A DNA stretch of 64,000 bases from Bolinopsis microptera (lineage: Eukaryota; Ctenophora; Tentaculata; Lobata; Bolinopsidae), in contig NW_026971780.1 of NCBI RefSeq assembly GCF_026151205.1, positions 17,741-81,740 on the forward strand, read 5' to 3'. The position numbers and the translations under genes were made by a program. This document shows positions 5,408 through 49,024 of the stretch, one piece after another. The notes beneath the pieces are model-generated. The model was not told the origin of the DNA, did no database searches, and saw only the letters and a program-made list of their open reading frames with translations. How positions within the stretch are numbered: the first letter of the stretch is position 1; every line of letters starts with the position of its first letter.

Positions 5408-8400
5408 CTGGAATATAATATGATGCATCTGTGAAGTGTGAGGCCACAATTTAACTTGTCATACTTTATTATAGAATAGTGAGGAGTATTAACACCCTAC
5501 GCGCGTGGGGTGGACTCTTGGGGTGGACTTTTATTCAGCGCGTATTTTGTAGCCTGTTCAACTTGACGTTTTGAATCGTTACTATCTCAATGTCACAGAT
5601 ACATAGAATGTGAGGTGATCATCTTAAAGAGAAACGTCTCAGCTTTCACCTGGTGTAAAGTTTATCTTTGTTCTCAAAATATAGCTCGCTCAGTGTGCAA
5701 CAGAAGTTGACATTACAATAACCACGTCTGCGACCGGTCGTCAGTTACCGGAGTCTTGCACAAAATTGGGTCCCTAAATTAAAATTTTATGACACAGTTA
5801 CGATGAACTAGTGTCTAGGGAAACATTTGGTAAAAGTTTCAACTCTCTACTATAAAAATAGCTATAGTTATTGAAGATAAACCGTGAGAAAATTCCTCTT
5901 GTCCGGATCGACGCTCTAGGAACCTTCCTTCTGTACCACGTGACAACGATTAGAGCGTCACGTGGCCGTCACGTGACACAAGTGCGCGCGTTGACTCGAG
6001 CATTCTCGTGGGAAATCCTGATTGCCTGATCGATCTCCTGGGAAATCCTGATTGGGCGTGAAAATACCGGAAACAGGAAAGAAAACCTCAAATTTGCAGT
6101 TCATTTCCTCAGTGCCGTCAGTTGTGTTCGTTTGCCCTGCTAAATAAATTTCACTCCGCCATAATCCCCTACTGCCCTATCCAATGAACTGTTTCTGTTA
6201 CAGCTGTCATTCTGTTAACTTGCTAACTTAGTCTTATAAATGAGCAGCTGATCGATTAATTGCTTGAACTGTGCACCCTTTGTTTTTTAAATACATAAGG
6301 TCAATTTTTCCATCGTGAAACTTAGTCACTGAAGACAACGCAATCTGGCTCTGCCTAGATCATTTGGAACATCCATAGTTAGCAATACTTTAATCGTTTA
6401 GCCAGTTATCAATGCCACATAGTAGATTTTAGCCTGTTCCAATCATTCTTATGTCGAGTTAATGAAATTTATGAAATTGCCTACCGTTCAAATCGCTCTC
6501 TGTTGTTAGCACCACACTGATTAACTACAATGTTCCAATTTTTTAGATAAATTATGTCCGACAACGCAAATTTTGTTTGTACTACTTGTTCTAAGAAGTA
6601 TCGGACGAAGTGCGGCCTGCAAAAGGTAATACTCCAGTAACGATCTACTTTTATCATCTGTCCTCTGAATCTGAATTATGCCGCCATTTTGCCACGATAA
6701 ATGTCTCTTGTACTTAAAGATTCCATTCATAGCAAATTTTTATTCTTACATCTTACCATCAATTTTTCATGATTCAGCACACTCGAATGAAACATAAGCA
6801 GGAGAAGCGGGAGTTTATTTGCCTGGAGTGTGCGATAGTGTTGCCAGAGAGGCATAGTTAGTAACATAATTACTTTGTACATTGTAGAATAACTTTCTTC
6901 CTGCTTGCAATTATAGGTATTCCGATATTTGGGCGCTTTTCGTAGGCAATATAGCAATGCAACTGTTGAGCACTTATTTGCAGAGAATTATTTGCTTAGA
7001 TAACCTGCAAAAATCTCGTTATTTAACAATTCATGCCGCCTAGGATTGGTGAGACATATGAAAGAGGTACACCAGCCTCGAAAGTTTCAGTGTGATTTCT
7101 GCACTGATGAATTTTGTAGAGGTACGTTAAATAACTAATTGAAAACAATTCATAATCATTTGATATGAAAAAATTAAAGACTGCTGTTTGTAGAAAGCGG
7201 ATTTCTGGTCACAAGTCGTAACGTGAAGTTTGCCTTTCGTCGTTCAGTTAGCCAAGTTTCCGGTATGATTTTATTCACACTGTCTCAAACTGCGTCTTTA
7301 CCGTTTCGATAACATCTGTTATCTGGCATAATTTTTGCTTACCTCAGAATACAACAAAAAACGACATATGAGAGTGGTACACAAATCATTGATCGATCAG
7401 CTGCTCCTTGATACAGCATAGTATACATGGTATAGATGATTTGACGAAAGCCTATTCGTGCTGTAACAATTTATAAAATAGCAGATAGTTATGGTGTAAT
7501 GGCACGCAAGACTAAGACACCCCTGTCCTCCAGAAAGCACAAGAAAAGGCACTTTGTAAGCTATGTCTTTTCCAATATTAAATCCAATGTATCACAATCT
7601 GTGGACTTTTTACTCAAAAACTAGATTGATTAATTGATAATTCATTGCTGATTGTTCACGCGCCCTGCATGGAAGTATAAAAATCGTAATCCAAATACTC
7701 CAGGAAGAATTGAATCAAGCTCAAAAGAAAAGAAGGGAATCTGGATCCTTCGTCGGATCGTCACAGAGCTTAGAGGGGAGCTCTACGCTTCACTGGGCAT
7801 GCAAAGCAGGGAGAGTGATGGAGGCGGAGGCACTGCTGGCTGCTGGAGCGGACATTAACAAGTTGGACAGAGCGCAGTTTAACCCTTTCATGGACGCGAT
7901 CAACTCAGGTAAATCATTCGACCGCCTTAACAATATGGGTTTATCTAACATTGGTAATAGTAGCAAGAGGTTTTAGTCATACGTTTGATTACAGCACAGT
8001 GTGAAACCCTGAAGCATACGTCGAGCTCTAAACTCTGTTTTGTCTAATAATCAATTATTTGAATATTGAAGGATTAAATTTGGTATCTTGATGATCACAT
8101 AATTAACAGGACAGGTCGACTGTGCTAGATGGCTGCTGAGGCAAGACGGTATAAAGCTCCAGCCCGAGATATGGTCGTTTTGTAGGGAGAGGGGGCTAGA
8201 GTCAGTGCTAACAGAAGGTAAAATCCTGAACTTTAGTTCATTGATTAAAAATCGCCATTAACAGACATAAAATCGTTCAGATGTAAAAATTATTTATTCA
8301 CTATTTTGCATTACATTTAGTTATAGGACTGACATGCGACATCCGTCGTTGACCTTTGTCTTTATTTCAGCAAGGTACGGAGAGCGATCCATGGCTGTCC

Positions 8401-9320
8401 CGATAGACCCACTCAGACTCCTGCCGGAAGATACCCCTCCGGTTGATCCAGATGAGACAGTTCTAGCAGATAATCAGTTACAGACTGAAGAACATATCCC
8501 ACTGATCAATGCATCAACATCTGCAAATGAAGGTACTTCAATCTGCTCTTCTTGTATATGTCTTTGTGCCTGCGTCTGTGATTGTACTGAAGTGTACTCT
8601 GTGTGTTTCTGTCTGTGTGTCTTTGAATCGTGTGTGTGTCTCTGATTGTACTGCGTGTGTCTGTAATTGTAATGTAGTGTACTGAAGTGAACTATGTGTG
8701 TTTATGTGTCTGTGTGTTGCTGGGTCTGTGTCTGTGTGTCTCTATGTGTGTTTCTATGTCTGTGTGTCTGTGTGTGTTTATGGGTGTGTGTGTGTGTGTG
8801 TGTGTGTCCGTGTCTGTGTGTTACTGTGTCTGTTTGTGTGTCCGTCTGTGTCTGTGTTTATGCATGTGTGCCTGTGTCTGTGTGGCTATGTCTGTATGTG
8901 GGTGTGTGTGTGTCCTTGTCTGTGTGTATCTGTGTCTCTCTGTGTGTCCGTCTGTGTGTAACTGTGTCTGTCTGTGTTTATCTGTGTCTGGCTGTGTCTG
9001 TCTGTGTGTCTGTCTGTGTGTCCGTGTGTGTCTGTGTGTGTGTGTGTGTCTGTCTGTCTGTGTGTGTGTGTGTCTGTCTGTCTGTCTGTGTATCTGTGTC
9101 CGTCTGTGTGTCCGTCTGTGTATGTGTTTATGCCTGTGTGTCTGTGTCTGTGTGTCTCTGTTTGTGTGTCTATGTCTGTCTTTATCTGTGTCTGTCTGTA
9201 TCTGTGTCTGTCTGTGTGTGTCTGTGTCTGTGTCTGTGTGTCTGTGTGTCTATGTGTCTATGTGTCTGTGTGTGTGTGAGTGAGTGCAGAGTGTGTATCT
9301 GTGCGAGTGTGTGTGTGTGT

Positions 9321-9358
<38 letters not shown>

Positions 9359-12300
9359 GTGTCTGTGTGTACTGTGTCTGTCTGTACCTGTGTCTGTCTG
9401 TGTGTGCCTGTGTCTGTGTGTCTGTGTGTCTATGTGTCTATGTGTCTATGTGTCTGTGTGTGTGTGAGTGTGAGTGAGTGCAGAGTGTGTATCTGTGCGA
9501 GTGTGTGTGTGTGTCTGTGTGTGTCTGTGTGTGTCTGTCCCTGTGTCTGCGTGGGTGTGGGCCCATGAGTTGCTGCATTAAGTTTTACCCTGCGTCTTGC
9601 TGCACTAAAAACGTCTTGCAGATCTCCTTGTTACGGGAGGCTTTGACAAGGTTGTACAAGAAATAGCAGAGGCCCTTGCTGGAATGAAAGATGTCCACCT
9701 AAAAGATCCGTCGCTGTTGATTGGGCTGAAGAATTTTTTGAAGATGGTTTGTTATGGTACGTTGGCAGCAGACTTCCTACCATTTCTGTCGTTTGTTGAT
9801 GCAGCACAGAAACAGTTCTGTCTTCTTAACCGGCAGAAACCAATCAAACCTCACAGAGACTGCTCTATCTACTTTGGTAATTTTCAAGATATATATTTTG
9901 AATTAAATTCATGAAACTGAACAATTTCAATTTTATTTGCAACCATTGTTCAGTTTATCGAAGGAGAACGGTCATTTTTTACAAAATGTTAAACGCCACC
10001 TTACTTATCACTTATCAGGTCAGGGTGTTCACTTGTTTGGGGAACAGTACCAGAGATACTGCTTGGGGCAGAACAACTTGTTCCACGTCTTGGGAGTCCC
10101 TGCCCTGAAATCTGTCATACGAGAGGAAACTCAGATTGAGGACCAAACTGCTCCAGGACTGAGCAGCTTCATGTTGGATCTTGCTGCGGAAACGTTTAAG
10201 GGCAGACCGGTGAATTTGAGCCACGATGAGCGAAGTGTAAGTTTTAAGATTTCGCCTAAATCATAGTTACTAGTTAGTGATACAATGAGACACATATTAT
10301 GTGATACTAGTGGGTCTAATTCTAATAATATAATCTGAGTGTAACCTAGGCACATTTCATCATATTCATATTCTTGGGACATAATCAAATAACTATGGAA
10401 ACTAGAATGAATTAAATGAGAATTGGCTGCCTTCTATAATCGCACGGACACATTTTCTTCAAGATATGGTATTGACTATTGCCCTTTATTAAAAGTTAAA
10501 ACTATCATACCTTATTAAGGTAAACAATTCAGGTAAAGCAAATGTTTGATCAAGGGGTGGGAAGACCCGTATATCCTGGGACAAGTATTGAAGAGGCAGA
10601 GAGGAAATTTGAGATGTTCCATTGCGAAGTAGATGCTATGTTAGCTGAGCTGGTTGAAAACTGCACCAACTACCCCTTAGTACAATCCCATGTTCTAGGT
10701 TTGTGATTATCATCATGAAATTATTATTGCATAACCAGGTGCGTAATCTCAAGTCGAGAGCACATTTACCAGGAAATCGATATCGATAATTAAAAAAGTT
10801 AATATCGGAAAGTTATGCATGTAATCGAATGAAATTATCGCAAATTCATATCGTTTATTTATTCGGCCAGCGGCAATTTCATTAGCGATACTTATTTTCA
10901 GACCTTTTCACAAAACTACCGACATACCTGAAGCGGGTTACAGCACTGATAAGTTCGGATAAAAAGTACGAGCTTACTCTTGCATCTAAGGTTAATTTTA
11001 CACATCAATACCCTGTAAAAATTACTAGTTACGGGATTAATTTCAACCCTCTAGAAGGCAATATGAAAAAGTATAACATTTTTCTGGGCTTTGTTCGGTC
11101 AAAATACCGTTTCACCTAATTTCTAATTTTCGACTGACTGGAATCGTTAACATTGTTCAACATCGTACAACATTGCCTTTATCATGTTTAGATCAAGAAA
11201 GCTAGAGGGTTCGCTGTTGATAGTAGTCGAGGAGACAATAACCTCGGAAAGTTTGAGTATCTGTTAGTGAGACTACGCAGAAAGATAGACAGCGTACAAG
11301 GTAAAATTGTTGTTGCTCGGGCATGAGTCTTTCTTCGCCAAGGCCCAAGAACATAACTTGTGTCAAAAATATTTTTGAGGTATGGTAACAGGTAATTATT
11401 CGCCATCTCGTATCTTAACAATTTATGATTAATAGACCCTCTCCTAGGAGTGTTACAACGCTTAGCAGACCTATTATCTGCAATTGTTGCTGCGGTGTAT
11501 GGTTCTTCGAGATTTCTTTCCTTGCCGGAAGTCCAGTCTGGTGTCCAAGAACATCGGTACACGAAACAGCGTACAGAGGCATGGTTTACTGCAAGGGCTG
11601 ACGGCTCTATCTCTTCATCTGATCTTGCTGCAGGACTAGGATACTTTTCTGTCTCGAGGGCTCGTGAAATTCAACAACAGTTGTGGAATTTGGTGAGCAA
11701 GAAATGTTTTATCATAACCACTTTTACAGTAAATTGTACAATTTTAATTCAGAACCGTCAAAATTTTGAAAGTTAATCGGATGACGAGATAACATTAACA
11801 GTAACAGTAGGTAGTCAGTCATATTCACAGATCTGAATTGTGCAGGCAAATTCTAGACGTCGCGTTGTCAATGAAGAGCACGATAATCCTGTTCATGACG
11901 AGGCTGATGCCGAAGCGGATGATATTCCTGCTGGACCCTTAGATGATGAGGTTTATTTTTTTTTCTGCACCAACCTCGACGAAATCTCGATAAAATGTGT
12001 AGCCTTGAATCTCAGAAAAAAACATTCCAGTTTTAGATCGTAGTCTTCAATTGCTAATCCAATTTTCGACAGCATTTCTTTTTATAAGTTAATATTTCCA
12101 GGCAATTGAGAATATGCGGTACGGTACTGATTCAGAGCCGCATGCTGTGGCAACTTTAGTCAGCAACGTTTTGCCGATAATACCAGAGTTTGCTGATCTC
12201 GTATATGTAGAAGAAGGTAAACTTCACTAGTTCACGTCACATTTCTCTCACATTGCTCACGATTGCGTATTTTGGTACCTTTATCCTACAACATGGGTTT

Positions 12301-15300
12301 TCAAACTTCTTAAATTAAAGCCGGGGTATCAAGCGTACGCCGTACACCGTGCTGTTGAATTGATAACATTGGCCTGTCAACTTCCACAATTAGTATCTCT
12401 GGTTGTTGAATGTTCCATTATTTATGATTTAACGTATTTGCCAGGTTTATCAAAGTTAACCAGTGATGGGAGCCCGACCCTGTCATCCTCTGGAGATGGA
12501 AGCTTAGTCCGGGATGAGGAGACCCTGGAAATTGGTAGGTATCTATCATAACAAAATGATACTGTGATACTCTGACGCCTTTTACAGTTCAATAATTGAG
12601 TGCGAGCAAGGCACGTATACCTTCTTATCTTTTATCGAATTCTTACATTTCAGAGTATCTTGTAGAGATAAAATGTCCTGCTACCAAGATCCTTCCCGAG
12701 CATCCGAAGGAATACTACCTGCCCCAAATGTACTCACAGTTTGCCTGCTATCAGAAGGTACGAGAAAAGCTGAACATACGTTTTCTGTTTCAATATAAAA
12801 CTTTTTTTAAGCCTAAGCCCCTTTTTTTCAAGACTCTGACTAACCACCAACTAATTCATCATTCAATATTCGCAGTTTTTTTTAAACATAACTTAAAATA
12901 CAACCAAACAAAATGTAATATGACAATAGGTTAACAACAAGATTTACAACAAGGTTTACAACAAGATTAACAACAACGTTTACAACAAGGTTTACAGCAA
13001 GGTTTACAACAAGGTTTTACAGCAAGGTTTTCAACAAGGTTAACAACAAGGTTTACAATATTCGCTGTGCTTGGTTGTTACTATTATCCTGACTTCCTTC
13101 GTTAGGTTTGGGCGAGTCGTGTTCTTTCTTGGTGTCGGTGGTTGTGTCGTTGAGGGGGTGATGCAACGTCAATTAATGTCAGTATTCCATAAAAACCCCA
13201 AACTGACATTGACATTAATTGACATTAATTGACATTAATTGACATTAATTGACATTAATTGACATTGATTGACATTGATTGACATTAATTTGTCTTGAAA
13301 TTTGAGATTATCGATATTCGATAAATATTCAAGATATTCACGTCTATGTAAGTTAGACCGGTTCAATAAAACAAAATGTCCTTGAATAATTATGAGTATG
13401 TTCTTATCTGTTGATCCTTAGGTTCAAAGACCACCAAAAAAAATTTCAGCTTCCAACTCTTCCATCTTCGGTCCCCACCGGCCACGCCCATATTTTATTG
13501 ATTTCTTATACAGGTAAATTATCTAGAATCGGCTTTTTTAGTATGAAGGAGTAATGTTAGCTGTTTAAGATTCGTTATTCAAAAATAAATGTCATGAAGG
13601 CATTTCGTTTAATGTGGGTTTTAAGTTCTGATGATGTTGAGAACCACGCCCTTGGATGGCCACGCCCATTTAAGAAAATTAAATTTCGGAAAACCGTATT
13701 ATTTTAGTTTTATTGTTTAATGATCTGAATTTGTTTCACATTTCACATTTCCATATGTGATAGTAGTGAATAAATTGATGATATAAACGTTCTAGAGTGC
13801 TAAAAATATGGTAGAACTACATAATCTCTGGTCGAAAAATATCGTGTCAATTAATGTCAGTATTCCAAAATTTTGCAAAACTGACATTGACATTAATTGA
13901 CATTAATTGACATTAATTGACATTAATTGACATTAATTGACATTAATTGACGTTGCATCACCCCCGTCGTTGATACACCAGTTAAACAGTGGATCGTGGA
14001 TGAACACCTCAATTATAGCAAATAGCAGCTCCTTGTTCTCCTTCCTTCGCTTTTGTCCCTGCAAGCTTTTAAAATAGCTCGAACATCAGAGCTCTTGCTA
14101 TCTTTTGGTCTATATTTGAGGTGAGCCTCATCCTGCCCGGCCCACTAAATAGACTCTGATAGGCATGGTGTTCTCACACCACTCCACCAAACCGGATCTT
14201 TGGGACAATGGTATCACCTTGTAGGTTCTCATACTGAGATGTTCAGTCAGCTGGTTCTTGGAGAGAAGCTGGTTTGCTACATTAAACACTTGCTCCATCA
14301 CTGCGTCCTGTCTCATATCGTCGTTACCCTTGACAAGCTGTTTCCAAGTGACACCGTCCGAGCAGAGAGCGAAGGTCACCTTGGGAAGGTTGAAACCTCC
14401 CGGGGTCTGATACTCTGTGTTAAAGCCCACCACTAAAGGAGATTGGAGGAGTAGTTACCGTCACATCTCGCCGGAATTTCGAGGGTTAAAAGTGGAAAAC
14501 CTTTCGATATCCTTGATCTTTGTTATCTTTAAAGTTGATGGTATTTTGAGAGCCGAACTTCGAGCCGCCATCCGGTATGCAGAGTCTTCTTTCAAGTTGT
14601 GATTTGCCCATTCCACATAAGCGTCAGTCAATTTGTCCATGTCAGTAATGATTTTCTTTAGAGCTGATTCTTTCATCAGCGTTTTCAAGATATCTTTGGC
14701 ACTGGACTGTTCGTGCATCGTTAGGAAGATGCTTCGAGCCCTTGATGTATTTGCAGTCAAGTTGTGCGTTCTTAAGAGCAAACAAGATGGGAAGCACGTG
14801 GTAAGGGTGCTCTCGTGCTGTTTTTGTGATCATCTTTATGACGAGATCGTTAAGATTCCCAGAAGTACTGTACTTCTTATCACATTCGTCGCACTGTTCT
14901 TCAAAGTGTGATTCTATCTTCAGGATTATCCTGTCAGCAAGGATGTCTTTGTTCTTAAATATCTTCGTATCGTCGTCATTCCTCACCTTAAATTTAAGGA
15001 AAAAAAGAAAATATTTATAAAAAAGTAAATTAAAAAAAAGAAAATAAAAAAGAAGTGAATTTAAAAAAAAGAAAATAAAAAAAAGAAGAAAAAAATAAAA
15101 GAAAGAAGAAAAATTTTGAAAAAGAAGAAAAAAAAAGAAGAAAAAAAAGAAGAAAGAGTAAATAAAAAAAGAAGAAAAAAATTTAAGGAAAACGGCATCT
15201 TTTAATTCAGCCACAGAGAAAGCTTTGATCTTTTTGAAGTTTGCTTGGTAATTTACGAAGTAACTATAAGCACCAATAACTTTCTTTACGTTGGGTTTTT

Positions 15301-18300
15301 TAGCTAGTTCGAGTAGTTCTCCGATGGTTGCTTTGTACATTTCAACATCTTCTGGAGAGTGTTTCAGTGTACTCATTTTATGGCAGTATTGTACAATAAA
15401 GTATTGTACAATAAATGTACAATGCAAATGGCACGCGTCATCGCAATTTAGCAATAGATAACTGATAAGCGAGCACTTAAAATACAACCAAACAAAATGT
15501 AATATGACAATAGGTTAACAACAAGATTTACAACAAGGTTTACAACAAGATTAACAACAACGTTTACAACAAGGTTTACAGCAAGGTTTACAACAAGGTT
15601 TTACAGCAAGGTTTAAAACAAGGTTTACAATATTCGCAGTTTAATAATGACGGTAAGCTAAGTAGAGTTCTCCACATGGTGTGGACACCTTCTTTCTCAA
15701 GGATCTGGGTTCATGAAATTAACCAAGAGTTACTTGTTGAATTCCTACATGTTGCACATGAACTTTATTTCACAGTGAGTTAAGATTTAGTATGTTGTAC
15801 TTTAAAATCATCGTGGACATCAATATTTATAGACAATATGAAAGAATAAGTATGTGTCAAATTTGTTCTATTTAGAACAGTAGCTGTCCATACCTTGGCC
15901 TAATTGGCTTATTACTTTATTATTCCGCAGCTCACAACGTTATGCAGCAAAATAAATGGATCTTAAATTAGAAAATTAACTCGTTAACTTTTTTCAGAGA
16001 AACCTCGAGATTAAAAAGACAATGCCTTTGGCTGTGAGGAATCTCCGCGAGAAGTTTAAAGCAGAAGCTAAAAAATTTCGACTTGTCGCTGACGTACCCT
16101 CCGTCCTCTCCTCGACTCCAGTCAATCAAGCACACGCAAATGGTATTCATTGTGTCTCTGTCCTGCAACGTGTCAATGTTCACGCTGGTATGTGTTGACT
16201 ATTTAGATTCTCTTTTAAAACTGCTAAATGGAGAAATAATATTTCACGATGCTCAGACATTACGAATTTTGACGACCTGCCATAAATCTACGTTGCATGG
16301 TTTATTGCCGTATTCAAAATTTTTCACCTTTCGACTGCCAACTTGCCAAAGATACAAAACTTATGCAAGAATTTCTCAACATTGCACACTGAACCTTAGG
16401 TAGTGAAATGAAGACACTGACGTCCGCTCTGAAGAAGGTTATGGAGGACATCTACGCTGAGGCTACACCTAAAGCGTCCGCAGCTATGTTTTACGTGCTA
16501 TCAGATTTAACAAGGACTCCTAATCAATTTAAGACACCCTATTTCGTCAGTAAGTACTTCAATAATCTTTATAAGTGTAACGCTAAGTATAACACCAAGT
16601 CCTTCGAATTGTGCTGTTAATTTAGTGATCATTGATCTAGTGCCATTAATTAAGGGAATTAATCATTAACCAACCGCATAGAATTGTAATCGATATTCAA
16701 TTATTGGCTCTTATTAAAGTATGAAAACTTATCATCCTTGCTTGCAGTTGCATATCTACCTACATCATCAAAGATGACGGTTGAGACTGACAGGGCTATC
16801 ACAAATAACATGATGGATGAGCTGGATAGTCGTTTCAACTTGACATCTAGATCTTTCGATGCAAAGACACGAGAGATATGCTTCAAGTGTGAGTTTTGAA
16901 ACTTAAATCAATCAATTAGACTCAATTTTCTAACTTAGTATGTTATTTTTATTTTAGTATGATAATAATACATTAACCGTCATTTGTTAAGACTTGAGGT
17001 CCCCTCCGAGTTCAATTGGGACGGCCTGTTTACTGAACTCCTAAGAACTGATTCAAGCCATTTATGATTTAACCTGTAACCATAATCCCACATTGTAATA
17101 TCCTTCAACATTTAGCGACAACCGGAGAGGCCTTATCAGTTTTTGAATTGAGACGGCAGTTGTGGGTTAAAGCGAAGGAACTTACAAGGAAAACAGAGTT
17201 AAGAAATTACCTTTGTGATTACCTCAACACACTGCTGAATAAAGATAGAGGTAAGGAACAATCATAGCGATTTCATGTTCAATGTATAGGATTTCTCAAG
17301 AATTATCTTCCGTGGTGAGGCAAAAATCGGTCAGTTTTACTGTGTAATTTCGCCCATTTAAAAAGGAGCAAGTCGTGAAATACTCAAATTTATGCCAGTT
17401 AACTAATTCAGACTGGTCTCTTAATACTGCGGAGCAAGAATTAGTTACAAAATGTGGCATCACTCTCTCTATTGAAGGAACGGATCGTGCTCAGCGCTTT
17501 CGGCTAAATCCTCATGTCAAAGCAGGAAAGATTCGGCTGGAAGACTTACGGGTACGGAGGTTTTACGGTTTTCAAATGATTTTTGGCATTTTGATTTTAA
17601 GACTCTGTTCGGAATAATGAAATGACAAGGATTTCAAATAAATTTTTCCATCTTCAAGATTGAATCTCTTCCGTAACAGACCACAGACCAGCAGGAAGTC
17701 CTCGCTGGAAATTCATGTGATTCATCTTTCAGGCAGCATGGTGTTACTCAAAATACTCAGCTGAGTATGAAGCTTGGGTGACGAAGCATCCGTTTCTTGA
17801 CGACCCAGCCTTCAGCCATTTCTTCCAAAAGGAAGAAATCGTTTATCTTCCTGATTCTCTCCCATCTGGTAAATGGATCGCAGCCGAAGTAGATTATACC
17901 CACATAGGGTCTCGGCTACGCAGGATGGTGGTAGCTGGCGCAATACCGGGAGTGGATCCTGAAGCGTGGAGAACGGTTGCTAAAAAAACTACTCCCGAGA
18001 ACAAGCCGAAGACCAACCTCACCACTGTGATTGTAGATTCTTCTGGTGCAGACCAGATGTCAATGACCCAGACCTTGACTTTCTTTAGTGCATCTGTAAG
18101 TTGAAATTGAAGTCGATTTTTGTAGACTGGTTAGTTTAAATATACTTAAAACCCTGACTATTGATTAAAATAGGTTATTTGGAGCATGCACTGAAGTCTT
18201 CAGCACGATTTTTTTCATCTATGAATTTAAGGATGTTAATAATTTTGATTTACTAAACAAATAATTTCGTCAGGTTGCAGAAGAGTTGAAGGAGAGTGGG

Positions 18301-21300
18301 TACCCGCCGGAGCACCAGTTTTGCAATGCTGTAAACAAGTGGTTAACTGCTCACGACGCTCGGGGTATCACAGGTTAGCCCAATATTGACAGCTATTTTT
18401 AAAGATTTTCGTCCCGCGTCATATTCTTATAATGTTTTTTTAGACCTGCAATTTTTAAGACAAGATTAGAACAGTCTTATCAAATCCGACAATTTTCATA
18501 GAAGTTGTTATTTCCAAGATACGAAGTTCGAAAAGCTAGCATTTAGTAATAGACGAATTTTGCAGCTGATATCAGAATCGACATGATGATGGTACTACAC
18601 GAGATGCTCATGGAAAAGGTCTCAGTTTGCTTTCCTCCTCCCACGAGCAGTACAAAGTGTGGGTTCAACTTTAATCTGATAGAAGATATCGTATGCGGAA
18701 CCCAAGCCCGGCTATGTCTGTACATAATAACGAAAGAAACCGGTAAATTTTTAATCATGAAAACGTTTGCATTCATTTTAGACTAGTGACGAAAATCAAC
18801 AATCGTTTGCCAGTTTGGTTAGCAAAATCGACAAAAAATAGTCCATTCCCCATGGCCATGATATTAGAATTCTGTCCGTTGAAATAGGCCACTCTGATTT
18901 TTATCATTGAACTTCGCATTGATGACATGTTCATTCTCTACAGGTTATGCTGCCAGGGCGTTTAGCTCGATAGATGTTGAAAATGCCCACAGCATTATAA
19001 ATCATTTGGACCGCCGCGGGGTCCAAAACTCCTCAATCGAAGAGCTTAGTAGACATGTCAGCAACCTACAGAGACTTCAAATTCTCAGGAAAACCTCTCT
19101 AGGAAGGTAATACATTAACTTGTTTAGTTAATAAATTTGATAAGTAGATTTTGAGTGGTGATTACTAAATACTGATATCGAGGTACCATAAAAAGGATAT
19201 ATAAACTTATCACTTATGCTTATACTATCAATGAATATCAAATCGCCTTCTCTAGTTATCAAACCCAACATAAATTAAATCTCTGCCTACAAGGACTATT
19301 TGATATTTACAACATACCGAGTGAATGTCTCAATCTTTTCAGGAAGCTTTATACTCCGACATCCACAATTTACCACGCCCCTGAGATCGACAAAGGTCTT
19401 TCTGATAGATTGACTTCCAGCCAATTCGATCTATCGAAGCCGAGTGGGAAGAACAAAGAACTGAAACCCCATGGTCGCAACGATGCTCCTCGCGGACAAG
19501 GGAGAGTTAGGGCCATCGGTGGTCACAAGACTGGAGAATATTTATTTTATAAGCGTTGAGGTTGTCACGAAAGCGTACTGTAATGGGACTGTATCAGATC
19601 TGAGTGATTTGATTTTGTGATTTGCGGTTAACATGATTTTATTGCGATTTAAGACTGTAAAAACTAAAGGTTCAAGTTGAACTATCGTCGCCATGATAAT
19701 GTATTTTGGAACTGTTCACGTTGAAATTGCTTCGTTAATCAGCCATCTTCCTTGTTTACTTTCTAGTTCTACTGTGTAGTACAGCTACGATCAACGATAC
19801 TTAGCTAGTACATTCATAGTAACTGCACTGAGAAGAGTAAAAAATTTGAGCTTTGACGGAATAACATTTCCTTGTTTTTAGATACGGTTACTATTCTAGT
19901 GAGGGGTTCATAGCTGACCATTAAGGTCTTACTCACAATAATTTGTGCTCTGATATTGGCCGTACTGACTGCTGTTGAAAAAGCCACGCCATCAGATGCG
20001 CGTCACGAGAGTCCACCCCAGTAGACCCCACTACGTACAAAATTTGAAATTTTCCCAAAAACTTCTGACTAAGCTAGTTTGTTTTCAATAACTTTTGCAA
20101 TATTAACAGTAGACCCTTCAAATTTTCACCAAATGTTTCCCTAGACACTAGTTCATCGTAACTGTGTCATAAAATTTTAATTTAGGGACCCAATTTTGTG
20201 CAAGACTCTGGTATCTGACGACCGGTCGCAGACGTGGTTATTGTAATGTCAACTTCTGTTGCACACTGAGCGAGCTATATTTTGAGAACAAAGATAAACT
20301 TTACACCAGGTGAAAGCTGAGACGTTTCTCTTTAAGATGATCACCTCACATTCTGTGTATCTGTGACATTGAGATAGTAACGATTCAAAACGTCAAGTTG
20401 AACAGGCTACAAAATACGCGCTGAATAAAAGTCCACCCCAAGAGTCCACCCCACGCGCGTAGGGTGATTAATCAAAACTTTAAATTCATCAACATTTAAA
20501 AAGAATCAAGTTATAATATAGATACCTTCGACGCGACAAGTGACGGTTATCTGCGAACCCTCTTCACTGAACTCCCCACCAGTATGACTTACAATTGGAG
20601 ATTCTAAGTATACTTTGTCTGCAGAGAGAAATTCGATAAGAATAGGTTTAGATACACCTAATAGTAGTAGTAAATCTTTCAAAGTACGAAATATCTCTTT
20701 AAAAGAGCATCCTAGGCACCTTATAGATATCAAAACGCATAAAAAAGAAAACAAAAAACATCAACCATCTTCTAACTTCTTCCACTCCTCCCTATCTAAA
20801 GCTAAAAATCTAAGGTCTTCGAAATCAGTCAAATTCTTAAGTCTAATATCAAGATTTCTACTAGTCAAGTCTTTTCTAATAACATCCAATAAGTTTAAAC
20901 ATGGTCTACCCCGTCTCCCTTCCATAAAAATATCAGAATTTATAGCAAATAACATAGAGGTGTATGCTGGTGAGTCTTCCTGTCCTCTTAAGATATGTCC
21001 TAACATTCTCCATCGAAACTTAGAGACTCTCACAGACAAGGGAGTGACATAACAACGAGCATAGAGTGCCTCATCAGAAATAACCCCAGTAGGCCATCTG
21101 ATGTTGAGGATTCTTCGGAGGTGTTTGCGATGAGCAATATCAAGTTCATTCAACGAAGCTAGTGGTGCAGCCCAGGAGTTGCAGTTGTAGAGTAGAATAG
21201 AGACTACTTGTGCCTCGTAGATTTTGATCTTCCTTTGGACTGAAATCTTGCTCTTCATCCAAACTTTCTGAAATTTACTAAAGGCAACATTACCAAGGAA

Positions 21301-24300
21301 TATTCGATTCTTGATATCCTTAACAGTGCACATCAACGATCCTAAAGTTTTGTTAGAGCGCCACTCTTCATCACCTCTATACACTTTTTCAACAATCACC
21401 TTGCGTTTAACAGTGGGTTTAGGATCTGCTAAATAAAAATGGACAAATTCAGTCTTGGAAGAATTGATATGAAGGTCCCACTGCTGGAATATATCTTTAG
21501 CGATAGGAAGCATTTCTTTGAGTGGAGCAAGTTCAGTGTTATTAAAGTCAATATCATCAGAGTATCCTGTTTCCTAATAACTTATACTAAATTTATTTGA
21601 AAAATTATAAACATATTAATCAATTATATGAACTGAGCTTTTATGTTTAGTCTTTCCATATCTTGGAAAAATCAATGCCACTTCTACGAAAGGAGTACGA
21701 CGTTGTTAAAGGAACTGGAATAAAAAATCAGATATTTTGACTTTTTGACCTAAAACTCAGAATATGGAGGTACTTAACACACTCACTAGCTATAAACACT
21801 TCCACAGATCCTGATATAGTTATTTCCCCATCTGCAACATTGCAGTTAAAGGTGCCAGTGTACGTTGTTAAGGGGTTTATCATGGTTAGCGTTGAATTCA
21901 GTGTAAAATCATCTTGATTTCCCTTTACAGTATCCACAAATTCGCTCAAATCCAAATCTGTACTATGTGTCCAGGTAACAGAGGACTTATCGACCAAGGG
22001 CTTCCCCACAATGATGCAATCTATTTTTATCTCCCCATTAGTGAGAACCGATATTGGTTTTTCAGGGACATTCACCTGTGTTTTTCTCACTGAAAAATTT
22101 CGAACATTCAATAATTTTCTATCTATTAAACTATTCAGATTAAAAAAAAAGAATGTAACATGTTCAAAAAAATTGAACTGAAGAGGTTTTGTATTATCAC
22201 TAAAATTCTGTATAATCTTGATTAAAAAGTTTATGAAAGTAAATTCCATACCAGTAATCAATGTTACCGCTGATGACTCCATCTCTTTTTTGACACTTCG
22301 GACTTTATTGTATCCCTTACACTTATATTCGCCGTCTGAGTCGTAGTCAGGTATCAAAGTATATTTACATGTTACAATATGTTCTCCAGAACATGTAAGA
22401 TCGGTCACTGACCCATTTTTCGTCCATGTCATAGAGTCTGAAAACGGACGTGTTATCATGAAATATTGATTTTTTATTATGATGGCAATGCAAAAATTTC
22501 AACAGAAATTTCAATTTAGAGCTATCCTATTAAGTCACGTCAAATAAGCTCACCTTGATTCGGAAGAATCAAATCGACTTGGTGAGGTGGCAGACCACCT
22601 ACAACTTCACATTTGATGGTTATGTCTTCGTTGTATGCGATTTTACTGTCCAAACCTACAAAAATTACAACTCATGGGTTCGGTATTTGACTTAATCAAT
22701 CAAAATTAGATGGTGATGTTTACAATCCCAAGCAAAAAATTATAAAAATTAGTTAACCATTAACATTTTCTTCGCTTAAATAAAGGACCCGAATTAAAGT
22801 TTCATGTCAATTTACTTGGGCTGATAGTAGATGTTACTTCTTTATAAACTGTTACAGTGAAGTTTAATGTAGTAGTTTTCAAAGCATCGTTTTTTGCTCG
22901 GTTTTCTGCAGTCACAGTGTAGGCTCCATCAAATTCAAAATCCACATCACTGTCTCCAATTGTACTAGAACATGTCATTTCATTGGTCCCAGTACACATG
23001 CTTATATCGAGAATCACTTGGTTTCCTTTTTTCAATGATACTAGATGTGGAGGTCGACCACCATTAAGTGTGAAGTCAAAAGTGAAGGAGGATCCAAAAT
23101 CGGTGTCAAAATCGTTTATCTGTGCAATTTCCACGTCTTTGACTGAAAACATTTTTATTCAATTTTAAATGTTTTAAAAATACTAATGAAGGAATTTTTA
23201 TTCAGTATAAAAATATTCATGGGTAATATTAACCTTACAGTGGTATCATATCGTTATAGAACTGCAAAAATGGTTATAGAACTGCAAAAATGGTTTTATT
23301 TATCATATTTTTGAGTTAAAAGACCAAGATCAAAATAACCTTGAAAATAGGATAAATGGCAAATCAGTGGTACAGAAAATTATAATTAACTGTTCAGTAT
23401 TATACAAATATATAATATAATCAGGATGGTACATTGTTGAAGATAATAATTCGGTCAAAATTAAAGTCCCTCAATTTAAATATATCAATTGCAGACAAAT
23501 TATACACTATGTAGTATGTATATATGAGGGATAAGTTCCAAGACACCGTTTTTAGCATCAACACAGAGAAAACTTATTAATATGTGTCCAGGAATAATCA
23601 TCATGCAATGGAAATCATCATTAACATCAGGATTCAATTTTAAACAACCCCCCTCCAGATCATTAATGTAGGTGATTTTATTTGATGAATAAATATATTT
23701 TAAATCACACTAATAATATGATCCAATTGTTTATGTAATTACAGAACATTATTGATATTTTCAAAAAACCAGCAATCGAATAGATGTAATTGTATATTAG
23801 ACAAAATCAGATCCACAAGGTTAGAAAAACAAAAATGCAATGATTGTTCCCGCTGCATAACACTAATAAAGCTACGATCACGAGTATTTGAAAATGTGCA
23901 TCTGATTTGACACTACTTTTATTTGCCAGGCTGCCTGCTTACCAACGACAGCATTTTTGATACTCTTATTCGTCTTTTCCTCGTTCTTAAAAGCTTTATT
24001 CTTCCCTGTACACTTGTATGAGCCATTGTTCTCATATACCACTTTGCCAATCGTATGAACATATTCAAGGGAATTCTTCTCACGGGTAACCTTGTTTGAT
24101 TGATCCGTATTTGATTGATCCGTGTCCTCATATTTAATTATTGTTTTAACGACATTACTACCATCATCAAATTCGACCAACAGGAAGAATGGAGTTCTTC
24201 CACCTTCAACTTTGCAAGTCAGAGTTAGCTCAGATCCAAAATCAACTTCATCAGAAGTAGAACTTGAAGTAAGTGTTGCTTCAACATCTTTCACAACTAT

Positions 24301-27300: not shown

Positions 27301-30300
27301 GTTTAATGATATAGATACTAAGGTAATTGAGAAAAAAGCATACAATGCTAAATATGAAATAATATCTGAGTATACAATACTGTACCTATCAAGAATTAAG
27401 AAGTTTATAAATAACTATAATAATAACCAGCAGTAGTTGTGTATGTGCACTTCAACGAGAATGAATCAGTGCTTGAGCAGAAACCACTATTAGTTGGGTA
27501 GGATTTGATGGATATAGAGTCGTGTTTCAGTTCAACACTTTCAGGTTTTCTTCCTGAGATGAAGATGGTATTAATTAAACATACTCGACTTAATAAGAGA
27601 AAAAATGCATCTTATGAATTAGATAGTAGGGTACCACCTAAATCATCGCTATTCAAGCCAGGTTTGTATGTGACTTAACAGTCAAAAATGGAAAGGTGAG
27701 GGCTACATTAATCATTCCAATTATAATCTCCGCAGTCCGAACGATATGGGGCGTGAAAAACAAAGTATCTTTGACTCTTTAAAAAGATTATTGCCAGGTC
27801 TTCTTTAGTTTTTTGAGTAATGAGAGAGTTATTCAATCTTTACAGCTGTATAGTAGGGAATAGCGTGGGGTGCCCTACATAGACTGAAGAATATCTGGAA
27901 ATCCAAACTCTCAAAGAGCCTCAAGATTAGATTGTTCATAGCGGCTTGTGAATCAGTACTGCTCTACGGATCAGAAACCTGGACACTGACAAAGGCTCAA
28001 GAGAAAAGTTTGGACGTTACATACACAAAGATGTTGCGTATGATGCTGGGTATCTCATGAAAGGACAAGGTCAGCAATATAATTTTGTATGGTAGCCTAC
28101 CAAGGCTGTCAAGTGTCAAACAAGTTACGAAGTAGGAGATTAAAAATGGCGGGATACTGCATCCAACATCCTGAGCTGCTTGCCAGTGATTTAGTCTTAT
28201 GGCTTTATGGGAACCTACGCACGGTAGAGCACAGCAAGGCCGACCAAGACAAAGCTACTTGTCTATGTTACTGAAGGAAGTTGGGACAAACTGCATTTAC
28301 ATTTCCAGATGAAATTAAAGACACTGACTACGCTACCCTGAGAAAAACTCTTGTTGATCGGTTATCACCCAAAACGAATATTGTAGCTCAACAGCAGAAG
28401 TTTATGACTTTAAATCAGATTGCTGGTGAATCCTTATACAGTACTTTTATGTCACGATTGAAGGAAGCTGCTAATGTTTGTCAGTTCGGTGATTTGTTTG
28501 ATTTAATGGTGCGTACACGTTTTGTGGCTGGACTATCCTCTGATAGGATACGTGCTGAACTCATATCAGAATCTGCTACCAACGACACGTCTGCCAGCCT
28601 GTTTGATAAAGCTCAGACGAAGGAGAACGCTCTGCAAAGTTCAATGTCAGTCACAACACACTATGTTCAAAAACCCGGGAAGTTTCAAAAACCTCAAAAC
28701 TCTTAGTTCCATCAGAAGGCCGACCTTAGCATTGTTTGTTCACGTTGTACTGTTCGTGGTCATGTTGCGAAAAACTGCAAAGTTCGTTGCAGAAACTGTC
28801 GCAAACCCGGACATATCGCAAAGAACTGTCGTTCTGCTAAGAAGCAATCCCATTGTGTTGAAGGGATTGGTGATCATGATGATGGCAATGCTTGCGCTGC
28901 TGATTATGGGTACACACATCGAAAGTCGGAGAACACGTTGTACTGCGTGGAGACGGCTGATCCTGTCCAGGTTCCAGTACAGACTCCTGTTCCCGATGAT
29001 ACTCTACCTGCATCAGTTGTTAGTAATTTATCCAGTTGTATTGATTGTAATCAGAAACCATTTCTTAAAGTTAAGATTAATGATAAGATTTTGAAAATGG
29101 AGTTAGATACTGGTTCATCTTTAAGCTGTATAAGTAAGTCTGATTTTGCTAGACTAGGACTAACTGATTGCCAGATTGTTCCATGTTCCCAGAAATTGCA
29201 AGTAGCTAATTTTAATTGTGAAAGCATTGACTGCAAGGCCCTTGTAAACGTTGAATTTAGAGGCAAGAAATGGATTTTACCACTATATGTTGTCGATTGT
29301 CGGTTTCCCACACTCCTAGGTCGAGAGTGGATCATCCAGATGTTTGGTAAAGACTGGTTGGATCATATGATAGGACTTGTTGATGTTGAGCAATCTTACG
29401 CTGTCTCCAAGCTTCAGAGAGATGAATTTGTTAGTGAGATACTCCGCAGTCCTGTGTTCGATCCTGGTGTTGGAACTGTTAAAGGATTCGAAGCTTGTCT
29501 ACAATTTAAGCCTGATGCGAGAGCAAAGTTTTGCAAGGCAAGGCAGGTCCCATTTGCCATCGTAGACAAGGTTGGGAAAGCCATAGACGAGTTAGTGAAG
29601 AATGGACAGCTGATTCCAACAGAGCACTCAGACTGGGCTTCACCCATAGTTCCTGTCATGAAAGCGGATGGTACGATTCGCATATGTGGTGACTACAAGA
29701 CTACTGTAAATCCTAATCTTGACACAGCTATTTACCCACTTCCTACAATAGAAGATTGCTTGAGTAAGATTGTCGGAGGTAAACTGTTTACTAAGCTGGA
29801 TATCAGAGCCGCTTATAATAGTTTGAAGTTGAGAGAATGTGACCAAAAGATTGTGACTTTGAACACACACAAAGGATTGTTCAGTCCTACTTCTCTACCA
29901 TTCGGTATTTCATCTGCCGGACCGATATTTGAACGCAAGATTGATGATACCTTGAGAAAGACAGAGAACACGGCATGGCGTGTTGACGACATTCTAATAA
30001 CAGGACCTGATGATGAGAGTCACATGAAGAACGTGAGAACGGTGATTACAGCACTAGAGAATGAAGGCTACAAATGCCGGCTAGACAAGTGTGTTTTCAT
30101 GGAGCCTAAGGTGACATTTCTTGGCCATGAAGTATCTGCTGACGGGATAAGACCGCTGAGTTCGAAAGTTGAAACGATAGTGAGAGCACCGTATCCTACT
30201 ACTAGAGCGGAGATGATATCATTTCTTGGTGGTGCACAGTACTATTCACGTTTTATTCCCAACATGTCAACAGTTGTTGAACCACTTAACCGTTTAAGAC

Positions 30301-33300
30301 CCGCTGACAGTATTTTCCACTTTGGAGATAGAGAAAAGAGAGCTTTTGATGAGTTAAAAGCGCTGTTATCGTCTGACTTGGTTCTAACAGTTTACAACCC
30401 TGAGCTGGAGTTAAAGCTTGACACGGACGCTTCATCCGTTGGTTTAGGAGCTGTTATGTCACATATTGATGAAAATGGGACAGAGCGACCGATCGAGTAT
30501 ATATCTCGAACACTGACGAAATCTGAGAGAAACTATTCCATGATAGAAAAAGAAGCATTGGCAATAGTTTGGGCGACTAAGAGACTGCACCGTTATCTTT
30601 TTGGACGACCGTTTACCCTAGTTACAGACCACAAGCCGCTGGAATCTATCTTTCACCCTTGTCGTGGAATTCCTAGCATGGTGGCAGGTCGTTTACAACG
30701 ATGGTCATTGTTCCTTAGCGGTTACACTTACAAGATCTAGTTTCGACCCACTGGTAAACATTGTAATGCTGATCTATGTTCCCGTTTTCCACTGCCTTTA
30801 GACACATCGGCAGAGACGAGAGAGTTTGATGACGAGTTAACAGAGGAGTTTGAAATGAAACCTCTAGATACTGTTTTCAGCGTGCACTACTTCGGTGATG
30901 ACAAACCTTTGATTGACGCTGAGTTAATAGCTAGTCACACAAGAAGAGACAAGACACTTGGTCGAGTGTTACAGTTTGTTAAAGACGGCTGGAACGAGAA
31001 ACCCCCTGTTGATGTCGAGCTGAAACCGTTTTACACACGTCGAAACGAGTTGTCAGTAGACCAGAACTGTATTGTCTGGGAATCTCGAGTTGTTATTCCA
31101 GAGAGTATGAGAAAGAGCGTGCTTTCAATGCTTCATGCAACACACATGGGCATTTCACAGACAAAAGCACTAGCGAGAGGCTATGTTTATTGGCCAAACA
31201 TGGATGCTGAGATCGAGAAAATGGTTAAACTATGTGAACCATGTCAACTAAACCAGAAGAAACCCGCTAGATCTACACCACACCCATGGGCTAAAACTAT
31301 GGAGGCTTGGGAGCGGATTCATCTAGATTTCTGTGGACCCTTTCTTGGATCTATGTGGCTGATAGTTATCTGTTCGCATTCAAAATGGTTAGAAGTTGTT
31401 AGAATGACGAACATTACAAGTAAGAGAGTGATTCAAGAGTTACGAGACATCTTTAGCCGTTGGGGACTACCCAAGATACTAGTATCAGACAATGGATCGA
31501 GTTTAACTTCAGAAGAGTTTAAAGTATTCACGAATAATAACCAGATTCGACACGTGCTTATTCCTGCTTACTCACCTGCAAGTAATGGACAAGCAGAAGT
31601 TGCAGTCGGACTGTTTAAAAGAGCTATGAAACGGATGATCTTGAAAAACCCTGACGTTATGTGTAACCTGGCTGACTGGCTACTAAACTACCGCAACACA
31701 CCACACACCACTACCGGAGTAGAGCCTGCAGTTGCGATGATGAAACGACGGACGAGAAACGCCTTGAGTTTTCTACACCCGAGTTCGAGTAGTAAGTTTG
31801 CCAAAGTTGCTTTAAACGATCAGAACACGATTGCTGAATCGAGACTTCGTGATCTGAACATTGATGACACTATATCGTTCTATGATGAGAACAAGAAGTG
31901 CTGGAGAAACGGTGTTATCGAGGGTAAGGAAGGTACCAAAGTGCTACTGATCAAGACACCTGATGGAGTCTACCGCAAGCATTTGGACCAGGTGATCAAG
32001 AGATCTGTTGTGTCAGAACCGTTGCAACAAACAGATCCGGATACACCGAGAGTTGAGCTGGAGATAAGAGATGGGCAGAGTTCTACAGCTACTGAGGGTG
32101 ATTTCGAGAAGACAGCTAGCTTACCTGAGAGTACAGAGCCGGAAACTTCGATTATAGTTGGTAATAATCCAAATATACCCGCTGAGCCTGACCATAAGGC
32201 AGCCGTTGAACCTATAATCACTGCACAACCTGTACTTAAACCACGTGAGCTTGCCATAGAAATAAACCGTAGCACTATAAAACCTAATATTGTTAGAGAG
32301 CATGAATTGCAAAAACCTAATTTGCTTCTGCCAGCAAACTTTGCACGTGATAGTAAACCACCAGACAGGCTAAGTTACCGCAAACTGGGAGGAACATAAA
32401 ACACGTTTCATTATCACATTTTATGACAGTTGTTTTATTTTGAATGTGTAAATCTAACCACACATTAATCCAGTTAAATTATCCAGATCAAACGTAAAGT
32501 TATAAAGATTCCCTGTCACGTTTACGTTTTGAAGAATAACACGTTATTTTTGTTTTAAACGGAATGCGCTTAGTTTTAAATCGTGTAGCGAGCGCAACAC
32601 GTTTCAATATTTTCACGTGAGTTCACTTCACACTTTTGTAGATTTCATTTTGACCACGTTTTCAGACATTTTAAATTTTGTACGATTAATTTATATCACA
32701 TTTTTTACGAATTCAGTTGAATTATTAAATCTATATTGTTTTTAACACTTTTTAGTTGAACGGGATGTTATATATTCTAGTAATTTATTGTGTTATTGTA
32801 TTATTAACCGATATACTATTCAGGATGACAACCTGTGTTTTGGTTTAGCTTTTAGCTTTTAGTCTTGCGTTTACCTTGTCACAACGATTCATAACACCTA
32901 CCAAGGCTGTCAAGTGTCAAACAAGTTACGAAGTAGGAGATTAAAAATGGCGGGATACCGCATCCGACATCCTGAGCTGCTTGCCAGTGATTTAGTCTTA
33001 TGGCTTTATGGGAACCTACGCACGGTAGAGCACAGCAAGGCCGACCAAGACAAAGCTACTTGTCTATGTTACTGAAGGAAGTTGGGACAAACTCTAAAGA
33101 GGAACTGCGAACCCTGATGCAGGACAGGGATATATGGAGGGGGTTTTCTGGCGTAGATCGGACTTACCGAGGTAGCACCGACATAGTAGCTGTAGTAGTA
33201 GTAGTGTATTGTAGGATATAATAAAGTATATTTTCCCCACTATCGATCAACTTCATCAATTAACCGAGAAACCAAAATTGAATGATGAAACATCAATTAT

Positions 33301-44455: not shown

Positions 44456-44910
44456 TACTAATAGACCGTCGACGAGTCCAACTCGGCGCGCGTCCTGGTA
44501 GGTTGTAAACCTACAAGTTTTGTTCGGCTGCAAAATCGTAAAAACCATAAATAGTCTTGTACTTGTTGGTTTATAACTTGTAGCGCGATGCGTTACTGTG
44601 TACTGTCAACTGTGCCGCGCACTCAATGAGGCTTCTCACAGCGAGATGCGCTACTGTGCTAGGGGTAAACCATAAAAATAAACTTGCTCGGATTTTAAAA
44701 ATTTTTGTACCATTATTTTCTAGAGACTGTGAGAATTTTCACAATACCAAATTTGTCATACATTTTTGGAAAGATCAGTGAGTTTCGCCTGGGTGCCATA
44801 TTTGATGGTGCGCGGCTTTTGGAGCAAAATTAGCTGTAAAAGTCGCGTAATTTGAGTAGTGTAAGAGGATTTTTTCGAGCTCCGTTTACCCCTAAAATTG
44901 AGGCACATTT

Positions 44911-44980
44911 AGCTTTAGCACAGTTGACTAATCTGCCACATTTTAGCCAGAGGTTACAAGTTCGAATCCCAGTCGGAGTC
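44911..44980 (+). other. tRNA-like sequence near the left tip of the palindrome
   Basis: agctttagcacagttgacta resembles a tRNA D-arm with A box, and ttacaagttcgaatcccag a T-arm with B box; spacing is about that of a tRNA. Pairing of the acceptor stem is poor, so it is a tRNA-derived internal pol III promoter rather than a working tRNA. Confidence 0.5.
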
Positions 44981-46176
44981 GTTCTCAAATGCGTTTATAT
45001 TATTATTTTACACATTTTAGCCTAGTTTAACCCATCAAGCAATTATCTAACCCTACATTATGCGATACAAAGTATCAACTAAATACATTCATCACACAGC
45101 AGAAGTCGTTAAATGAATAGTGTACACGTTCACGTACAATTACATCAGTTGTCTATCGACATTATTAACATCTGGTTCAAGGCGACCTCTGCAGTACAAT
45201 GTACTGATAAAGGGATATACTGACTTATGTGCTAGCTAAATTTAACTAGAGTGTACAGTTTAGGACAACACCTGGTTGATATGGTAACGTAATGAGAAAG
45301 CACTTTTCAGGACGGTTACTCGATCGTACCAAGATTGTACCGTCATTGTAAAGTAAATTTACGGCAACAGCTGTGTTTGTACTTGACAGATATTTGCTTA
45401 ATTTAAGAACCAAATAAAACTAAAGTGAATCGATAAAAATGTGACTTTCTTAAAATAAATACGTGTCAACAAAATGTAGAAGCTGATAAATATATAGTGT
45501 ACTCGATCACGTATTACACTGACTGTTTGATATGAAATGTAATTTATAGAGAGTACTTACAAGACGGTTACTTTACAGCCTCAAGAATAATATGTCATTG
45601 TATAATAGCCATAGACCTAGTACAGAATAGTCACAGTAGCAGCTGTGCAATGTATTTGACTCAAATCTCTTGTCAGGACTGGTCTAGATATTTTATATTT
45701 TCTACAATTATATCAGAAGATCTCAACAAATTGAACAGTGTGCGAGGAATTTTTAAATATAATAACCAATGAAAGATAGTGTTAATTCTTACCTCAATTA
45801 GTGGACCGTCCCTTTACATTAGAACTCAGTGTTTGTCTTTGTTAAATATCTTGATAAGGTATAATTACGAACAGGTGCGTGTTTTACTGGATAGTCTCTA
45901 TCTTCTTTATATCTTGAGATCTCAGCTTTAGGTAAGTGACAACTGGATCAAAGTTGTTTTGTTTAATTTTATGCTCAAGGTTCGCACTATTCTGCCTTGT
46001 TATATTTGAGTTGTTGTATATCAGCATAGTATTTTAGTACAATATTGTAGAAATCATACCCGTAAATATTTGCTCGGTATCTGGCAGCAGTTCATCGATT
46101 AATGTTCCGTGTTCTGTTTCCTGGTATTTTGTGAGCGGAATATTTTCTTGAGTAGGATAAAATGAAATCCGTCACC

Positions 46177-46810
46177 TTATCTTACACAATACTGAATACT
46201 GAATGAATACTGAATACTGAATGAATACTGAATGAATACTGAATACTGAATGAATACTGAATGAATACTGAATGAATACTGAATGAATACTGAATGAATA
46301 CTGAATGAATACTGAATACTGAATGAATACTGAATACTGAATGAATACTGAATGAATACTGAATACTGAATAAATACTGAATGAATACTGAATAAATACT
46401 GAATATTGAATGAATACTGAATGAATACTGAATGAATACTGAATGAATACTGAATGAATACTGAATGAATACTGAATGAATACTGAATGAATACTGAATG
46501 AATACTGAATGAATACTGAATGAATACTGAATGAATACTGAATGAATACTGAATGAATACTGAATGAATACTGAATGAATACTGAATGAATACTGAATGA
46601 ATACTGAATGAATACTGAATGAATACTGAATACTGAATTAATACTGAATGAATACTGAATACTGAATGAATACTGTATGAATACTGAATACTGAATGAAT
46701 ACTGAATGAGTACTGACTGAATACTGAATGAATACTGAATGAATACTGAATACTGAATGAATACTGAATGAATACTGAATAATATACTGAATAATATACT
46801 GAATACTGAA
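46177..46810 (-). repeat. 11-bp minisatellite, left arm
   Basis: Iterated attcattcagt units (with shorter attcagt variants) on the minus strand. No stop codon occurs in at least one frame of the unit, so a repeated Ile/Gln/Tyr/Ser/Phe frame of about 260 codons stays open by composition; I do not treat it as a gene. Confidence 0.85.
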
Positions 46811-46961
46811 TGATAATTATGATGTATTATTTTTAAAGTTATAATGTAGACAAGGAAACACACGTTTAGATTTTTGAAGATAACTTTAACTAAACTATAT
46901 TCAATAACTCTATATATCCAAATACTTATCTCAATAATTATCAACGTTTTGGTTATAAAGT

Positions 46962-47717: not shown

Positions 47718-48121
47718 TCTAACGGGAATGCTTCAAATTTTTTGGAGTAATTAACTCAGACCCACGTGCTATTTTATACAAATAAAAAAAAACCAATCTG
47801 CTTTCCCTGATCGACGTGTCTTTTTCGTAACCAACGGTTAGGTCCCATTGTATTTGTATGTACGGGTGTTAAGGACTTCGGGCTCCCTCCCTCCTTTCCT
47901 ACCCTCCCTCCCCTGGAGGGAGGGTAGGGTAGGGAGGGAGGGTAGGAAAGGAGGGAGGGAGCCCGAAGTCCTTAACACCCGTACATACAAATACAATGGG
48001 ACCTAACCGTTGGTTACGAAAAAATCACGTCGATCAGGGAAAGCAGATTGGTTGTTTTTTATTTGTATAAAATAGCACGTGGGTCTGAGTTAATTACTCC
48101 AAAAAATTTGAAGCATTCCTG

Positions 48122-48877: not shown

Positions 48878-49024
48878 ACTTTATAACCAAAACGTTGATA
48901 ATTATTGAGATAAGTATTTGGATATATAGAGTTATTGGATATAGTTTAGTTAAAGTTATCTTCAAAAATCTAAACGTGTGTTTCCTTGTCTACATTATAA
49001 CTTTAAAAATAATACATCATAATT

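Follow-up and report, generated by a model that had tools for sequence, protein, structure and literature searches.

The window analyzed here, a 64,000-nucleotide stretch of the genome of the ctenophore Bolinopsis microptera (contig NW_026971780.1, positions 17,741 to 81,740 of the forward strand), contains a transposable element at 5493-20466, with a length of 14,974 bp. The element is bounded by terminal inverted repeats (TIRs) of 390 bp, the left at 5493-5882 on the + strand and the right at 20077-20466 on the - strand, which are 96% complementary; the left repeat has the tip CACCCTACGCGCG, and two GGGGTGGACT units lie close to this tip. Immediately outside the repeats, a target-site duplication (TSD), ATTAA, occupies 5488-5492 on the left and recurs with the same letters at 20467-20471 on the right. 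A first-pass annotation had described inverted ends and an ATTAA duplication at this position, and these observations were confirmed, except that the ends, given as about 385 bp, measured 390 nt.

Between the repeats lies a single gene on the + strand (6554-19559), which covers 13 of the element's 15 kb. We assembled its model by hand from GT-AG junctions, obtaining 29 exons, 4218 nt of coding sequence and a protein of 1405 amino acids (aa) with zero internal stops; all 28 introns are of the GT-AG type. The one gene annotated earlier therefore stands, with its counts of 28 exons and 1392 residues revised. Exons 1-4 (6554-7420) supply the translation start and three fingers of the C2H2 type (aa 1-100), and exons 6-7 (7704-8217) the ankyrin repeats (aa 124-227; Pfam Ank_2, E 5.5e-8, aa 145-207). 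Pfam detects both fingers and ankyrin repeats near the N end, as had been annotated. A region with no named domain (aa 282-560; exons 9-13, 9622-11300) is followed by a YqaJ/lambda-exonuclease-type PD-(D/E)XK domain (exons 14-19, 11436-15774), placed by Pfam at about aa 610-781, and by a conserved C-terminal half, our proposed transposase (exons 21-29, 16400-19559). When the whole protein was searched against PDB, 398 matches up to E 1 were returned, and the top stretch among the best 60 was the ankyrin part. Large protein searches (5.8 billion proteins, with about 8000 candidates scored per search) gave a sole match, P0001, a single open frame of 837 aa on a contig of 3734 bases, which shows 42% identity to the window protein in an alignment running from within exon 14 through exon 29. 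Since P0001 reads there as one open frame, it supports the splice model over that part, while exons 1-13 are predicted only. No relative was found when viral and bacterial/archaeal contigs were scanned with two alignments, and a search of PHROGs gave three weak matches, to families of unknown function.

The introns hold two further features. A TG-rich tandem array (8695-9546) lies between exons 8 and 9 and is present also in the deletion copies described below. Intron 18 carries a nested insert, with approximate bounds set by eye at 12895-15633, which breaks no exon and is bordered on both sides by a 36-bp-unit repeat in direct orientation, an array of which lies at 12928-13058 within the insert. 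Besides the gene, open frames of at least 200 aa occur in the element only in the TG array and the nested insert; the latter has a 290-aa open frame on the - strand, together with two short tandem repeats inverted relative to each other.

To assess mobility, we used the left end as a query against the same genome, which gave 40 scored matches, the window included, from 134 candidates. We read 20 of the 39 other places and added the window copy for the TSD count. Both ends were present at the terminal base in 18 of the 20 (L023 overruns its piece at one end and L026 has a single end), and a perfect 5-bp TSD was seen in all 19 testable copies, window included, with the consensus WTWAW and with ATAAT, TTAGT and TTATA among the examples. 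The 18 other testable copies are 4.8-6.8 kb long. Four of them (L009, L010, L025 and L028; also L027, with more gaps) lack 6564-7479 and also a second stretch, which runs from the TG array up to 18493, and the readable rows of L011 and L024 are consistent with the same internal deletions; these copies are without most of the gene, retaining both ends and the gene exons on either side of the deletion. Across the last 1950 bases, identity of the 18 copies to the window is 96.7-97.7%, and to one another 96.5-99.9% (153 pairs), and amplification has therefore been recent. A related empty site on the same contig (C21:4758-4990) is 86% identical to the joined flanks of the element and has one ATTCA where the window has ATTAA-element-ATTAA. 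Together, these results mean that mobility of the element is well supported: the transposon proposed in the first-pass annotation gains a related empty site, TSDs at 19 of 19 copies and a second lineage with ends, and a host gene caught between chance repeats is not supported. That annotation had also looked to other full-length copies for support; the same ends were found elsewhere, the full gene only once in its own genome. Searched with exon 25, the genome gave an identical match in the window alone and three matches at 50-52%, and a search with the YqaJ exons returned the window as its sole match. In a separate observation, L048 (C9:9060300-9061300) contains exons 28-29 at 97-100% identity to the window protein, within a 292-aa open stretch.

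The three places at 50-52% to exon 25 (copies C1, C9 and C11) define a sister lineage, lineage 2, of which C8 is a further copy. The C1 copy, 17.8 kb in total, has inverted ends of 119 bp (90%) with the tip CACCCC and a 5-bp duplication, and its core keeps the order of the window element: an ankyrin-like part, then a YqaJ-like and a C-terminal one. In C1 and C9 the C2H2 fingers are encoded on the other strand, apparently as a separate gene in this lineage. Lineage-2 ends are of the CACCC...CGCG form; the C1 end has 22 matching places, and among six end pairs inspected by eye, four had perfect 5-bp TSDs (TGATT, GCTTC, TAGAA, TTGTG) and two had imperfect ones (AACTT/AATCT, ACAGT/ACTGT). The C11 copy has a stop within a conserved exon, and the C8 copy is apparently deleted internally. 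The C1 copy also holds retroelement open reading frames (ORFs), one of them (L033+L034, joined reverse strand 18129-19535) a reverse-transcriptase-like ORF of 469 aa with a YVDD motif, perhaps Penelope-like as judged by eye. In addition, L049 (C11:5983300-5984800) contains a relative of the last exon at about 43% to both the window and P0001, perhaps from a third lineage of the protein family.

We then considered the nuclease. A tight piece of the window protein matched YqaJ (PF09588) at 24.3 bits (E 4.2e-5), above the Pfam curated cut-off of 22 bits; the domain of P0001 alone scored 21.6 bits, slightly under this cut-off, and whole P0001 scored 16.5 bits, while in the Pfam scan the match was absent when the whole window protein or a 302-aa piece of it was used. 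The best PDB profile match of the nuclease region was the exonuclease 3syy (E 0.074, not significant alone), aligned at GT.xEPHA and EIKCP. The catalytic residues E693, D737, E754 and K756 (E, D, E-x-K) are kept in the window, and the same residues occur in P0001. An exonuclease that looked intact had been annotated, and this description holds, the domain passing the Pfam cut-off with its active-site residues kept. In the two lineage-2 copies compared (C1 and C8, at 22-23% identity to P0001), the Asp is retained, Lys or Arg stands opposite the first Glu, and VLVT or IHIT opposite VEIK. Three of the four nuclease residues thus appear to have been lost in both copies, and nuclease activity is probably not universal across the group. 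Because of this apparent loss, the core reaction would not need the nuclease, which is probably accessory. A nuclease as the basis of the element is accordingly not supported: it is the C-terminal half that is best conserved across the lineages, and lineage 2 has apparently lost three of the four residues.

The C-terminal half was examined in an alignment of four rows (P0001, window, C1 and C9), with the C9 row covering the later part only and with the splice points of C1 and C9 set by eye. DYTH, D..G.DQM and GYAAR...EN.H are common to all four rows, and SFD[AG]K is found in the three rows reaching that part; the invariant DYTH is followed by an invariant Glu. Nine acidic columns are identical in all four rows, and D965 in three, which allows several choices of triad; in the window protein the positions of note are D965, DYTH at 1120-1123, D1168, D1173 and E1292. 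There is no conserved Cys column in this alignment. Comparing C1 with C11, and skipping stop-containing codons, we obtained nonsynonymous (dN) and synonymous (dS) divergences of 0.05 and 1.0 on two exons and of 0.09 and 0.48 on a third. Such values would be expected if the protein's function had been maintained while the element copied itself, and they point to purifying selection on the C-terminal half. In Pfam, the four halves gave a lone match in one row, to TraB (E 0.13), and the PDB profile search gave 28 matches, all to picornavirus VP1 with E of at least 0.11; both were taken as chance.

With precise insertion, TSDs, mobilized deletion derivatives, a second lineage bearing the same core and a conserved C-terminal half established, we consider it likely that the locus holds an autonomous-looking DNA transposon that inserts via its inverted ends at a 5-bp stagger, using one protein that combines C2H2 fingers, ankyrin repeats, a YqaJ nuclease and a putative C-terminal transposase. 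In such an element, the C2H2 fingers, perhaps with the GGGGTGGACT units at the ends, would guide binding to DNA, and the C-terminal half would use DDE-type chemistry to cut the ends and transfer the strands, with a 5-bp stagger. The nuclease might trim the 5' strands at the donor break, from which homology-directed repair would restore the copy, or it might cut the second strand at the ends, as TnsA does with TnsB in Tn7. That the fused YqaJ nuclease served as a second catalytic center of this kind (TnsA-like second-strand cutting or donor-end resection), since lost in one sister lineage, is a suggestion to which we give not quite even weight.

Several observations weigh against this interpretation. 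Exon 25 and the YqaJ exons of the window lineage were found at one place only, and the element is hence autonomous-looking at most. For the C9 and C11 copies, the pieces examined showed no inverted ends, and in the nuclease comparison a Glu-Lys pair lies shortly upstream in C8, so that a shifted register is possible for that copy. Between SFD[AG]K and DYTH, the expected place of the second Asp in the C/DxxH group, no Asp is fixed in every row. Pfam, PDB and the large protein search matched the C-terminal half to no family of transposases. Finally, AlphaFold models reached a predicted local distance difference test (pLDDT) score of only 41.4 for P0001 with six window exons, an alignment that includes a few misplaced short pieces, and of 42.4 for exon 25 with P0001, too poor to assess an RNase H-like fold.

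We therefore weighed other explanations of the locus. One is that a transposon with its transposase elsewhere has the gene between its ends as a host gene or as cargo, as the gene's single full occurrence beside abundant ends and its ankyrin and C2H2 parts, which are common host domains, would allow; against this, the gene fills 13 of 15 kb and leaves no other frame of at least 200 aa outside the TG array and the nested insert, the C1 copy of lineage 2 has the same core within its own ends, and gene exons remain on both sides of the deletion in the deletion copies, so that we regard this explanation as unlikely. We think it more improbable still that transposition is catalyzed by the YqaJ nuclease itself, with a structural role for the C-terminal half. 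The active-site E, D and E-x-K of the window and P0001 fit such a role, yet lineage 2 has its own TIRs and TSDs with the first Glu and VEIK apparently replaced in two copies. Moreover, exonucleases of the lambda type degrade DNA ends and strand transfer is not a known activity of theirs, and a short staggered TSD is a typical trait of DDE enzymes.

A stronger contender, which we hold to be a real possibility though the less probable one, is that the element belongs, as a divergent member missed by sequence search, to a catalogued superfamily of the C/DxxH group (hAT5, P, Kolobok/KolobokE, MuDR or Dada). DYTH, with the invariant Glu after it, fits the C/DxxH motif shared by this group in the cited descriptions (PMC10045372, PMC9587614), its place relative to the second Asp not being established, and KolobokE is described as having a lambda-exonuclease-like nuclease (PMC9587614). 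On the other side, no Pfam model of those families matched the four C-terminal halves, in a scan whose HMMER filters remove most matches above E 0.1; the TSDs are 5 bp and not TTAA; and the nuclease stands before the C-terminal half, not after it. Our best reading is that the element represents a DNA transposon superfamily without assignment by Pfam and PDB profiles or by published descriptions, and possibly a new one. The undescribed superfamily raised in the first-pass annotation is retained to this extent: the C-terminal half received no name from Pfam, PDB or the large protein search, and the superfamily is termed only possibly new.

Elsewhere in the window, a - strand ORF at 20761-21573, immediately right of the element, resembles by eye the end of a non-LTR (long terminal repeat) retrotransposon; the flank has a paralogue at C21:4758-4990. 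Two adjacent long + strand ORFs at 28707-32399 resemble, again by eye, a Ty3/gypsy-type pol region. A palindrome at 44855-50973, with arms of about 3 kb that are 97-98% complementary around a center of about 19 nt (47913-47931), could be real or an assembly fold-back, and each arm contains an ORF with C2H2 fingers as well as a tandem array of 11-bp units. At 53654-56417 lies a GC-rich, strongly skewed block, which contains TCC-rich arrays as well as a 255-bp unit repeated in tandem (3.7 copies).

Known systems share single features with this element. The cited texts put the eukaryotic DNA transposon superfamilies recognized by Repbase at just 23 or 24 (PMC10045372, PMC12730594), and a transposase without assignment but with clean ends is therefore worth classifying. 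YqaJ nucleases had been annotated as not being the defining enzyme of named DNA transposon superfamilies, which is only partly right, as ISL2EU (PMC4482050) and KolobokE (PMC9587614) are described as carrying such nucleases. ISL2EU elements, of the PHIS superfamily, are animal DNA transposons with YqaJ beside a DDE transposase (PMC4482050, PMC9179366), the function of the separate YqaJ ORF being stated as unknown in 2015 (PMC4482050). The majority of ISL2EU elements have two ORFs, 2-bp AT TSDs and GG ends, whereas our element has one polypeptide, encoded by one spliced frame that is continuous in P0001 too, 5-bp TSDs in 19 of 19 testable copies and CACCC ends. KolobokE, in its published description, has a transposase of the C/DxxH group together with a PD-(D/E)XK nuclease resembling lambda exonuclease (PMC9587614); here, by contrast, the nuclease is upstream of the C-terminal half, and the 5-bp TSDs are of varied sequence, the 4-bp TTAA of Kolobok and KolobokE being found neither in lineage 1 (ATAAT, TTAGT, TTATA among others) nor in lineage 2 (GCTTC among others). 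The 5-bp TSDs recall those given for hAT5 (PMC12730594), but no Pfam hAT model was among the matches for the four C-terminal halves, under the same filters. The C(2)C and H(3-4)H described for Transib/CMCT between the second D and the last E (PMC12730594) would leave a conserved Cys column, which is absent here. For P-element-like and RAG/Transib-like readings of the C-terminal half, which we also weighed, the comparison extended to these motifs. As far as their cited descriptions go, none of ISL2EU, KolobokE and hAT5 matches the element's combination of features, and this combination was absent from titles and abstracts of the open-licence literature among the matches listed, Repbase Reports not having been searched for.

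The division of labor that we propose has a counterpart in bacteria. In Tn7, a restriction-type PD-(D/E)XK nuclease, TnsA, works with the DDE transposase TnsB and 5-bp TSDs are produced, the two usually being separate proteins; our element differs in that no TnsA model was among its Pfam matches. Since a lineage with an intact nuclease and an apparently degenerate sister lineage occur in one genome, the role of YqaJ can be tested here by direct comparison.

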